DNA of 64,000 nt, from NCBI GenBank assembly GCA_020854035.1, contig JADZGE010000012.1, positions 62,001 through 126,000 of the forward strand, read 5' to 3'. The notes under the pieces are model-generated. The model did not search any database and was not told where the DNA came from. It was given only the letters and a program-made list of their open reading frames with translations. This stretch comes from Burkholderiales bacterium. Its GTDB lineage: Bacteria; Pseudomonadota; Gammaproteobacteria; Burkholderiales; SG8-41. Positions within the stretch are counted from its first letter, which is position 1, and every line of letters starts with the position of its first letter. The position numbers and the translations under genes were made by a program. Below, one piece after another: positions 7,816-54,909 of the stretch.

Positions 7816-9039
7816 TCATACGATTCCATCCGCCCGCAGCCGCGTCACCTCCGCCTCGCTCATGCCGAGCAACCCGCGCAGCACCGAGTCCGCGTGCTCG
7901 CCCAGCGTCGGCGGCGGCACCTTGTGCTCGAGCGGGGTGCCGGAGAAGCGCATCGGACTCCTCACCAGCGACACCTTGCCCGCGAGCGGATGGTCGAGTT
8001 CCATCCGCAGGCCCCGCGCGAGCGCCTGCGGCTCCTCGAATACCTGCCTGAGGTTGTTGATCGGTCCGTTCGGCACGCCGGCCGCCTCGAGCGCGTCCAC
8101 CCAGTCGCGCGTGGTGCGTTTCACGAAGATCTCCGAGAGCAGCCGCGTGATCTCGGCGCGGTTCTCGACGCGCCTCGCGTTCGTCGCGAACCTGGGGTCG
8201 GCCGCGAGGTGCTCGCACTTCGCGACCTCGCAGAACCTGCGGAACAGGTTGTCGTTGCCGCAGGCGAGGATGATGTCGCCGTCGGCGGTGCGGAACGTCT
8301 GGTAGGGCACGATGTTGGGGTGCGCGTTGCCGAGCCGCCCCGGGGGCACGCCCGTGGCGAGGTAGTTGCCGCCCTGGTTGGACAGGATCGCCGTGAGCGA
8401 GTCGAAAAGCGCGAGGTCGAGATGCTGGCCGGCGCCGGTTCGCTCGCGGCTCGCGATCGCCGCGCACACGGCGATCGAGGCATACATCCCGGTGATGATG
8501 TCGCCGATCGGGATGCCCGCCTTCTGCGGGCCGCCGCCGGGCAGATCATCGCGCTCCCCGGTGACGCTCATGATGCCCGCCATGCCCTGGATCATGAAGT
8601 CGTAGCCGGGGCGCTCCGCGTACGGACCCGTCTGGCCGAAGCCGGTCACGGAGCAGTAGATGAGCCGCGGGTTCACTTGCGCGAGGTCCTCGTACCCGAG
8701 CCCGTAGCGCGCGAGATCGCCCACCTTGTAGTTCTCCAGCAGGACGTCGCTTCGCGCGGCGAGCCGGCGCACGATGTCCTGACCGTCGGGTTTCGAGAGA
8801 TTGACCGTGAGCGACTTCTTGCCGCGGTTGGCGCAGGCGAAGTAGGCGGACTCCGTGGTGTCCCGGCCCTCGCGGTCCTTCAGCCACGGCGGCCCGAACG
8901 CGCGCGAGTCATCACCGGTTATCGGGCGCTCGATCTTGATGACCTCGGCGCCGAGGTCGGCGAGGTTCTGCCCGGTCCACGGCGCGGCGAGCACCCGGGA
9001 GAGGTCGATTACACGGATGTGCGATAGCGGTCCCGGCAT
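7816..9039 (-). CDS. CaiB/BaiF family CoA transferase
   Basis: MPGPLSHIRVIDLSRVLAAPWTGQNLADLGAEVIKIERPITGDDSRAFGPPWLKD...; FDFMIQG..GIMSVTGE region. Confidence 0.93.
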   Translation of the reverse strand: MPGPLSHIRVIDLSRVLAAPWTGQNLADLGAEVIKIERPITGDDSRAFGPPWLKDREGRDTTESAYFACANRGKKSLTVNLSKPDGQDIVRRLAARSDVLLENYKVGDLARYGLGYEDLAQVNPRLIYCSVTGFGQTGPYAERPGYDFMIQGMAGIMSVTGERDDLPGGGPQKAGIPIGDIITGMYASIAVCAAIASRERTGAGQHLDLALFDSLTAILSNQGGNYLATGVPPGRLGNAHPNIVPYQTFRTADGDIILACGNDNLFRRFCEVAKCEHLAADPRFATNARRVENRAEITRLLSEIFVKRTTRDWVDALEAAGVPNGPINNLRQVFEEPQALARGLRMELDHPLAGKVSLVRSPMRFSGTPLEHKVPPPTLGEHADSVLRGLLGMSEAEVTRLRADGIV

Positions 9040-37211: not shown

Positions 37212-38191
37212 CATGTTCCACCCGCCGCGGGGGTGCCCGCCGCCGCGCGCGCGAGCCGGTCGTTCACCGCGGTCCATTCCGCGGCGGCCGGCGGCCTCTC
37301 GACGATGATGACGTCACACCGGGCGGCGTCGAGGCGCCGCAGGTTCGCGTAGAGCGCGTGCGCGTAGCGGGCCGGGTGATCGCTCCCGGGAATCCAGAGC
37401 ACGGCGGGGTCACGCGGGTCCGGCATCGATGACCCCAGCACACCCGCCTTCCTGCCGCGCCGGGCGAACGATGCGACGAGCGCCGCGAGTTCGTCCGGCC
37501 CGGCAAGCATGAGCGGCGTGCGCGGCGCGTAATGCGCGGCCGGCGTCCCCGGCGCGCGCGGCGCCGCAGCGCCGGCGTCCGCCAGCGGCACACCCGCCGC
37601 GTCCTCGACGGCGCGCGCGCCGATCGAGCCGGGGCGAAGCAGTCGCGGCGCGGCCCCGGAGAGATCGACGATCGTGGACTCGATTCCGACATCGGCTTCG
37701 CCGCCGTCGAGCACGCATTCCACTGCCGCGCCGAATTCTTCGCGTACGTGCGCGGCGGTGGTGGCCGACACGCGGCCGTAGCGGTTCGCCGAGGGCGCCG
37801 CGATGCCGCCGCCGAAACGCCGCAGCAGCCGCTGCGCCACGGGATGCGAGGGCACGCGCACGGCGATCGTGTCCTGCCCGCCGGTCACGAGGTCGCCGAC
37901 CCCGGGCGCGCGGGCCAGAACGAGCGTGAGCGGTCCGGGCCAGAACGCGCGGGCGAGCCTGTGGGCCGTCTCGGGGATGCCGCGCGCCCAGTTCGCGGTC
38001 TCGATCGCGTCGGCGAGGTGGACGATGACCGGATGATCCGCGGGCCGGCCCTTGACTGCGTAGAGCCGCCGCACCGCCGGCGGATTCGCCGCGTCGGCGC
38101 CCAGCCCGTAGACGGTCTCGGTGGGAAAGGCGACGAGCCCCCCGGCGCGGAGCACGGCGACGGCGTTGTCGATTTCGCGATCGCCTGTCAC
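37211..38191 (-). CDS. L-threonylcarbamoyladenylate synthase (Sua5/YciO/YrdC family)
   Basis: MTGDREIDNAVAVLRAGGLVAFPTETVYGLGADAANPPAVRRLYAVKGRPADHPVIVHL; C-terminal Sua5 domain. Confidence 0.94.
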   Translation of the reverse strand: MTGDREIDNAVAVLRAGGLVAFPTETVYGLGADAANPPAVRRLYAVKGRPADHPVIVHLADAIETANWARGIPETAHRLARAFWPGPLTLVLARAPGVGDLVTGGQDTIAVRVPSHPVAQRLLRRFGGGIAAPSANRYGRVSATTAAHVREEFGAAVECVLDGGEADVGIESTIVDLSGAAPRLLRPGSIGARAVEDAAGVPLADAGAAAPRAPGTPAAHYAPRTPLMLAGPDELAALVASFARRGRKAGVLGSSMPDPRDPAVLWIPGSDHPARYAHALYANLRRLDAARCDVIIVERPPAAAEWTAVNDRLARAAAGTPAAGGT

Positions 38192-38267
38192 GTTCGAGCC
38201 GCCGATTGGCGGCCCATCGCCCTTTCCGGCATACTATCTCTCAAGGGTCAGGGTGAGAGCGGAAGGC

Positions 38268-39215
38268 ATGAAGGCTCGGGCTCTCCTCGCAACGGTGGTG
38301 CTCGCGGCGGCCATGCGTGTCGCGGCGACGCCGCTCGACGTCCATCTGGTACTCGATTCCACGGCGTACGGCCCGCCGCCCTCGGGGGGAGAGACGTTCT
38401 CCGGCATCCTGCGCGAAGGCGCGGGTGCGCCCGCGGTGGGCGTGATCCTGCTGCACGGCCGCGGCCTGCACCCCGACAGTCATGTCGTCGGGCCGCTCCG
38501 CGCGAGCCTGAACGGCCTCGGCTATACGACGCTTTCGATCGCTCTCCCGGTGCCTGCGGATACCGACGGCCATCCCGGCGCCACGGACTTCCAGGATTAC
38601 GTGAACGACGCGAGCGGCCCGAACTACGCCTTCCCCGAGCTTTATGCGCGGGTGCGCGCCGCCGAGGACCACCTCGATTCGCTCGGGGTGGAACGTGTCG
38701 TGCTGATCGGCTTCAGCCTGGGCTCGCGCATGGGCGCCGCCTACATGGCCAGGGCGGCATCGGCGAGCATGCTGCCGGTGATCGCGTTCGCCGGCGTGGG
38801 CATGGGCACGGGCTCGATCGATCCGCTCGACGCCGCCGCGACGCTCGACGAAGTCGCCGTGCCCGTGCTGGACCTCTACGGCAGCCTGGATCTCTCGGAA
38901 GGCGTCGTGGCGGGCGCAGCGGCGCGGGCGGCCGCGTACGGCTCGTTCCCGAGTCCGGGCCCCTCCTACACCCGGATCGTCGTTCCGCAGTCGGGCGCGC
39001 CGCTCGACAACGACGCGCACCAGTTCGACAACCTGCACGGCACTCCCGAGTCGGAGGTGAACCAGACGCGGATGCTGCTGGATGTGGGCAACTGGGTGAG
39101 TGAGCATGCACCGCTCCCCGTGCCGGAACCGGGCAGCGTGCCGCTTCTGGCGCTTGGCCTCGCGGCCTGGCTTACCGCCGGCGGGCTGAGGAGGGCGCGG
39201 CCGGCGCAGAACTGA
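38268..39215 (+). CDS. Secreted alpha/beta hydrolase-like protein with PEP-CTERM sorting signal
   Basis: MKARALLATVVLAAAMRVAATPLDV...GVILLHGRG...VVLIGFSLGSRMGAAY...PLPVPEPGSVPLLALGLAAWLTAGGLRRARPAQN. Confidence 0.82.
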   Translation: MKARALLATVVLAAAMRVAATPLDVHLVLDSTAYGPPPSGGETFSGILREGAGAPAVGVILLHGRGLHPDSHVVGPLRASLNGLGYTTLSIALPVPADTDGHPGATDFQDYVNDASGPNYAFPELYARVRAAEDHLDSLGVERVVLIGFSLGSRMGAAYMARAASASMLPVIAFAGVGMGTGSIDPLDAAATLDEVAVPVLDLYGSLDLSEGVVAGAAARAAAYGSFPSPGPSYTRIVVPQSGAPLDNDAHQFDNLHGTPESEVNQTRMLLDVGNWVSEHAPLPVPEPGSVPLLALGLAAWLTAGGLRRARPAQN

Positions 39216-39225
39216 TCGCCGCCCC

Positions 39226-39672
39226 TCAGGCGGCGGAGGTGCTGACTTCGACCTTCACTTCCGGCGTCGCGACCGCGACGCTGCCGTAGAGCGGTCACCT
39301 GCCCTTGAACCGCTCGATGAGGTCCTCGCCCTGCCGCTGTGTCACTCCGGCGAGCTGGAAGCTGAGCCGCACGCTGTTGAATACCGTCACGTCGCGCCGC
39401 ACCGGGTTCGCCCGGTCGAGGGTGCCCTCGATCTCCACCGCCACCCGCGGCGCGAGCTGCTCGCTCCTGCCGATCGATTGCACCAGCTCGACGCCGCACG
39501 CCGCGACGCCGGCGAGGAAGAGTTCCGCCGGGGTGACCTCCTCGCCGGGACAGCCGTTCTGCACCGGGCCGTCCACGATGAAATGATGGTTGCGCGCGTT
39601 GCACAGCACCCGGCCGAAGGTATCGGTCGAGCGCGCAGCGACCCTGTATCCCCTGACTTCCGACTGTGCCAT
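39226..39672 (-). CDS. OsmC family protein, candidate selenoprotein (in-frame TGA at 39295-39297 read as Sec)
   Basis: MAQSEVRGYRVAARSTDTFGRVLCNARNHHFIVDGPVQNGCPGEEVTPAELFLAGVAACGVELVQSIGR...GEDLIERFKGR[TGA]PLYGSVAVATPEVKVEVSTSAA*. TGA occupies the CPxY catalytic Cys position; OsmC-like C-terminus continues in frame; hairpin follows. ORF track ends at 39295. Confidence 0.75.
39264..39283 (-). promoter_or_regulatory. Candidate bacterial SECIS hairpin
   Basis: mRNA-sense 5'-GCGUCGC-GGUC-GCGACGC-3', perfect 7-bp stem; the GGUC loop lies at nt +21 to +24 after the UGA. Confidence 0.6.

Positions 39673-39741: not shown

Positions 39742-40980
<1,239 letters not shown>

Positions 40981-53682: not shown

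Positions 53683-54909
<1,227 letters not shown>

Follow-up and report, generated by a model that had tools for sequence, protein, structure and literature searches.

In the window, a stretch of 64,000 nucleotides from a Burkholderiales bacterium, a minus-strand gene for an OsmC/Ohr-fold protein carries an in-frame TGA at the codon for its second redox cysteine, followed directly by a hairpin that co-varies among relatives. From sequence comparison, we put the probability that this gene encodes a genuine OsmC selenoprotein (Sec-OsmC), with a predicted selenocysteine (Sec) at the second cysteine, at about 0.93.

An in-frame TGA at the second OsmC cysteine

Retranslation of the minus-strand frame gave 125 codons, a TGA at 39297-39295, 22 more codons and a final TGA; the locus is summarized in Table 1. 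The read-through frame, the 148-residue product and the position of the TGA (39295-39297) had been proposed in a first-pass annotation of the window, and all three stand. When the TGA is read as a residue, the sequence becomes ...GEDLIERFKGR-U-PLYGSVAVATPEVKVEVSTSAA (148 aa). With residue 126 as Sec, the protein scores 33.3 bits against the Pfam OsmC model PF02566 (cut-off 27.5) in a match that spans residues 43-141, on both sides of the TGA; this score and the two redox positions, C59 and U126, which are invariant as Cys/Sec, place it in the OsmC superfamily. Against the Ohr model TIGR03561 it reaches 26.2 bits (cut-off 88.85), which leaves it outside Ohr proper.

Table 1. Features of the Sec-OsmC locus, in window coordinates.
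Feature	Coordinates	Strand	Remarks
Sec-OsmC coding sequence (type II)	39226..39672	-	148 residues + stop TGA 39226-39228
Start ATG of Sec-OsmC gene	39672-39670	-	
In-frame TGA, codon 126 (predicted Sec), pairs with second OsmC/Ohr cysteine	39295..39297	-	
Cys59 codon, counterpart of first (peroxidatic) OsmC/Ohr cysteine, invariant	39496..39498	-	Ohr AAC-cysteine alignment
SECIS hairpin, 7-bp stem GCGUCGC/GCGACGC, loop GGUC	39264..39281	-	nt 17-34, UGA = 1-3
Invariant loop G-U, first two bases of Val134 codon, nt 25-26	39272..39273	-	
NhaA-type Na+/H+ antiporter gene, upstream, same strand	39742..40980	-	ORF, identity read from sequence

In profile and single-sequence alignments to Ohr structures, the AAC cysteine in the central helix falls opposite Cys59 and the Cys-Pro cysteine of the second site opposite residue 126, and in an alignment with the genome's other OsmC proteins these two columns were the only fully conserved ones. 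Both sets of alignments bear out the proposal that the TGA pairs with the second OsmC cysteine, and the other OsmC domain of the window (~54.6 kb, L103) does have Cys there (CPVHRTL), as had been noted. The label "catalytic Cys" holds in part: residue 126 is the second redox cysteine, but by Ohr homology it occupies the resolving position, not the peroxidatic one. In Ohr of X. fastidiosa, Cys61, the first of the pair, acts as the peroxidatic residue and Cys125, the second, as the resolving one (PMC5962072). A fold search with an AlphaFold model (mean pLDDT 83.4) returned OsmC/Ohr structures as best matches, with modest PDB TM-scores of 0.40-0.60.

Comparisons within the family used 33 Sec forms and 8 Cys forms, all of them distinct. 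Cys59, Arg21, Glu50 and Arg125 are invariant in the family alignment, and the most conserved stretch lies around Sec126 (F122, R125-U-P-L-Y-G130, V132 and A133), with the motif U-P-L-Y-G in all 33 Sec forms. The catalytic Glu51 of Ohr, which follows Asn-Pro, has no counterpart at that place; the invariant Glu of this family, Glu50, comes one residue later, so that the attacking and resolving roles could differ from those in Ohr. Two adjacent histidines, residues 29-30 (RNHHFIVDGP; 39583-39588, minus strand), are also invariant and are absent from the genome's OsmC paralogues; they form a possible metal or proton-relay site.

The NhaA-type antiporter gene upstream is probably outside the Sec-OsmC system, since the linkage is not kept at other loci. 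The convergent neighbour (38121-39215, plus strand) encodes a hydrolase-like protein whose C terminus bears a PEP-CTERM-like sorting signal (VPEPGSVPLLALGLAAWLTAGGLRRARP). Flanks vary among the compared loci, in which no conserved operon or partner genes were found, and the phage and plasmid collections searched gave no match to Sec-OsmC.

Conservation of the codon and of the downstream hairpin

Codon 126 is TGA in 33/33 Sec forms, from Betaproteobacteria, Acidobacteriota and Gemmatimonadota, and TGC or TGT in the 8 homologues; the in-frame UGA thus aligns with a conserved Cys of homologues, as is asked of bacterial selenoproteins, and by alignment at least three bacterial phyla share the TGA arrangement. 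Among 100 relatives, every full-length orthologue (65-78% identity) has an internal TGA at the same codon, and a terminal TAG is additionally crossed by two matches that extend to the extreme end. Scanning 85,462 species, with one genome per species, returned 24 loci (TGA in 22, TGC in two) in Betaproteobacteria, Acidobacteriota, Gemmatimonadota and one Deltaproteobacteria record (Myxococcota in the tree labels). When 200-400 sampled genomes were searched per phylum, strong full-length matches came from 1/399 in the window's phylum (the window's own genome), 3/347 on the Acidobacteriota side, 6/200 on the Gemmatimonadota side and 2/284 on the Delta side; remoter Cys relatives occur in four Acidobacteriota-side genomes. 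The family is discrete and sporadic in distribution. Two pairs of Cys forms are nested inside the Sec forms in the tree, which suggests Sec-to-Cys changes within the family, with rooting by the distant Cys group uncertain.

Codon-level conservation downstream of the TGA, a check proposed in the first-pass annotation, is kept in 33 distinct sequences; this, with conservation of the TGA itself, excludes a sequencing error at the codon. Synonymous identity is 0.72 at codons +1 to +11 versus 0.43-0.58 in upstream blocks. In one genome, G047 (L036:1500-1584, minus strand), a gene remnant comprises the last part only, with the TGA and an intact SECIS (YKGR-U-PLYGSVAVATPDVKVKITTG), and adjoins a thiamine-diphosphate-enzyme-like gene.

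The hairpin had been described as a perfect 7-bp stem, GCGUCGC-GGUC-GCGACGC, with its loop at +21 to +24 after the UGA, and so we found it; a 6-bp core, nt 18-33 with UGA as 1-3, is common to all members. Among the 1357 TGA triplets that the window contains on its two strands, the one at codon 126 alone is followed by a perfect 6-bp stem in the same register with G at loop position 2. RNAfold, suggested as a check, gave the 61-nt stretch taken alone an energy ordinary for GC-rich DNA (z = -0.33), with 75/200 shuffles as good as the native sequence. Folding energy was therefore rejected as proof of a SECIS, and covariation was used instead.

Four stem pairs are invariant over the 33 Sec forms, and the three variable positions show matched double changes only (C-G/G-C 22:11, C-G/U-A 30:3, and loop ends G..C/A..U 18:15). 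The cells of the variable pairs are paired in 99/99 cases, compared with 65.2 on average and at most 79 in 20,000 trials with shuffled partners. On 31 rows, a dedicated covariation tool gave 100% of cells paired, 27 double-change cells versus 9.5, and a score of 0.331 versus 0.130 (slid controls <=0.098). By codon usage alone, any one sequence would satisfy the three variable positions in about 5% of cases. Most of the pair changes are synonymous: Ala-Val is encoded either by GCG-GTC or by GCA-GTT, with no mixed form, although each of the four combinations would give the same residues, and switches between the two occur several times, spread over the tree. One sequence from the Acidobacteriota side, L085, has its outer pair the other way round, by way of synonymous Thr codons on each side. 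This SECIS is unusually informative because the protein sequence and the RNA fold restrict one another at the level of single codons.

The loop GT is present in 33/33 Sec forms versus 0/8 Cys forms, all eight of which have Ala (GCN) there; as GU makes residue 134 Val in Sec forms, the RNA appears to dictate this residue. A stem of 5-6 bp, lacking the loop GU, persists in four Cys homologues from Acidobacteriota. Part of the stem is thus due to protein sequence and codon usage, and the SECIS-specific signals are the loop GU and the covariation only. Published criteria for bacterial SECIS elements are a loop of 3-9 nt, a stem of 4-16 bp, a distance of 16-37 nt from the UGA, a G in the first two loop positions and an MFE <= -7.5 (PMC13188914); all 33 Sec forms have a 4-nt loop, a 6-7 bp stem, the G and a distance of 20 nt, with MFEs of -8.9 to -13.1 kcal/mol. 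Rfam returned no SECIS match, only a chance miRNA match. The covariation, the invariant loop GU and the published criteria identify the hairpin downstream of the TGA as a genuine SECIS.

Sec machinery and a second TGA-containing OsmC gene

The window is part of contig C12 of a 5.03 Mb genome in 128 contigs that is 86% complete. Contig C18 carries tRNA-Sec (77 bits; ARAGORN agrees), selB (412 bits) and selA, recognised by its translated sequence, close together, and selD is on contig C21 (396 bits). A search for sel genes had been put forward as a check, and selA, selB, selD and tRNA-Sec(UCA), the set looked for in a genome with bacterial selenoproteins, are all present. The selD gene is itself Sec-containing, with an in-frame TGA at the usual UGCK site (FSHGGG-U-GCKLSP; L072; C21:189270-190199), and near selA a glutaredoxin-like gene has an in-frame TGA (FTQPG-U-SSC); several genes of the genome thus use Sec. 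This glutaredoxin-like gene (L017:7701-8473, minus strand; TGA 8426-8428), which reads MNTPAEKFVLFTQPG-U-SSCLRAKEF..., probably encodes a Sec glutaredoxin fused to a helical domain. Between selB and tRNA-Sec, a thioredoxin-reductase-like FAD protein with a CADC motif (L017:2917-3834, minus strand) may be the reductant for Sec proteins.

Among the 100 relatives, selB was detected in 17/18 with the Sec-OsmC gene versus 51/82 without it (Fisher p = 0.01). Nearly the whole family has selB, as do both of the two Cys-form genomes examined, so this co-occurrence is weak evidence, and we rejected it as proof of Sec use. Two genomes with Sec forms yielded no selB: G008, which is 72% complete, and G116, whose sole match resembles EF-Tu.

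A scan of the genome for OsmC domains identified a second TGA-containing gene, P0002 (L108:1447-2004, minus strand; contig C65:83550-84107), whose TGA (Sec) falls at the position of the first OsmC cysteine (GF-U-LLT), while the second is Cys; its product scores 164.3 bits against NCBIfam NF041052, "OsmC-related (seleno)protein". The gene has a SECIS-like hairpin, UGCGC-GGUAU-GCGCA. Its matches in relatives keep the internal TGA in all but one, which is partial (position checked in 15), and some relatives (G013, G041) have up to 5-6 copies of the UxxT-type OsmC gene. An OsmC-like selenoprotein with the motif UxxT is listed in surveys (PMC1088965, PMC2398784, PMC9312934, PMC13188914); it is known from the Sargasso Sea and GOS surveys, appears in Table 1 of PMC13188914, and is the one OsmC entry in that 2026 inventory of 119 prokaryotic selenoprotein families. 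From the motif and the NF041052 membership of P0002, the Sec of the Sargasso UxxT protein would correspond to the first OsmC cysteine.

Alternative readings, proposed chemistry and known systems

The TGA could be a real stop in a truncated gene or pseudogene; the protein would then have 125 residues, and the similarity beyond the codon would be left over from a cysteine lost not long ago. ORF callers do end the gene there, and G047 has a decayed C-terminal fragment; nonetheless, we regard this as extremely improbable, because the codon is TGA in every Sec form across three phyla and never TAA or TAG, amino acids and synonymous sites are better conserved after the TGA than before it, and the SECIS co-varies. 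Read-through of UGA to Cys or Trp is known elsewhere, and a code change or near-cognate reading might decode the TGA as one of these without selenium. No support for such decoding was found in this analysis, and the idea is hardly credible here given that TGA is a normal stop in the genome, including at the end of the Sec-OsmC gene itself, that the sel genes and tRNA-Sec(UCA) are present, and that a co-varying SECIS with a SelB-type GU loop would serve nothing. It is also very unlikely that the gene is a plain member of the described UxxT family. The Pfam domain is the same, and 30/31 members of the window family show weak NF041052 similarity (best E 2.7e-8), but the NF041052 score of the window protein is 17.7 bits (cut-off 95), its motif is U-P-L-Y in place of UxxT, and the genuine UxxT protein of the genome, P0002, has Sec at the first OsmC cysteine. 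No NCBIfam model (release 20) claims the window protein. The suggestion that the family may not be new was therefore half right: Sec-OsmC proteins of the UxxT type are known, and the window gene represents a separate subfamily with Sec predicted at the other cysteine. The same domain with a different Sec position defines a distinct subfamily under the rule of PMC13188914, and OsmC is listed there once; among the libraries and open-access papers searched, the window gene is, as judged by sequence, a new selenoprotein subfamily with predicted Sec at the Ohr/OsmC resolving-cysteine position.

For the Sec-OsmC protein, we propose that SelB with Sec-tRNA would bind the hairpin directly downstream of the UGA, leading to insertion of Sec at residue 126 of a 148-residue protein of OsmC/Ohr fold. 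Cys59, the first OsmC cysteine, and Sec126, the second, would form the redox pair. By homology to Ohr, from which we infer peroxidase-like chemistry, Cys59 would attack first, on a hydroperoxide or other electrophile; Sec126 would resolve the intermediate to a Cys59-Sec126 selenenylsulfide, and a dithiol reductant would open it. A resolving Sec126 is the most economical reading because the Ohr alignment equates the first Cys with the peroxidatic and the second with the resolving residue, and we lean slightly towards it. The reverse, in which Sec126 attacks as the peroxidatic or nucleophilic residue and Cys59 resolves, has somewhat less than an even chance. Sec in thiol oxidoreductases usually takes the attacking position. 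A passage on MsrA in PMC13188914 agrees with such a placement, the surroundings of Sec126 are the most conserved part of the protein, and the Ohr-type Glu right after Pro is absent near Cys59; the invariance of Cys59, Arg21 and Glu50 argues the other way, as does the clean alignment to Ohr, where the first Cys attacks.

The combined picture, an unlisted subfamily whose Sec takes the resolving place in an OsmC/Ohr peroxidase-type site, beside a separate Sec-OsmC with Sec at the first, attacking position in the same genomes, seems reasonably likely. If true, a single fold has received selenium at one or the other partner of its redox pair in the course of evolution. One genome would combine both placements of Sec, first and second redox position, in proteins of this fold, and Cys forms are nested among the Sec forms; the family would provide a natural experiment that makes selenium at the resolving position a directly testable question. 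As the subfamily is absent from both NCBIfam release 20 and the 2026 inventory, standard pipelines probably truncate the gene.

Compared with Ohr (TIGR03561), the window protein has the same fold, both redox positions, the second-site Cys-Pro (here Sec-Pro) and the Arg of the N-terminal loop, but it has Sec for the resolving Cys and its post-Pro Glu is shifted by one residue. The alpha/beta hydrolase-OsmC protein of the window (53683-54909) shares the OsmC domain and both cysteine positions (GACTAM..., RCPVHRTL), whereas it has Cys at both, no TGA, and a fusion to another domain. UxxT proteins (NF041052, OsmC_like_Se) resemble the window protein in their PF02566 domain, one Sec, a bacterial SECIS directly downstream and occurrence in the same genome; the arrangement is opposite, with Sec first and Cys second in the UxxT member of this genome and Cys first and Sec second (R-U-PLYG) in the window protein. 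The E. coli SECIS requires loop G23/U24 and a bulged U17 (PMC8659212). Like that of fdhF, the window hairpin follows the UGA directly and carries GU in a small loop near position +20, its nt 25-26 corresponding to G23/U24; unlike it, the window hairpin is without the bulged U17 and has its loop 2 nt farther from the UGA.
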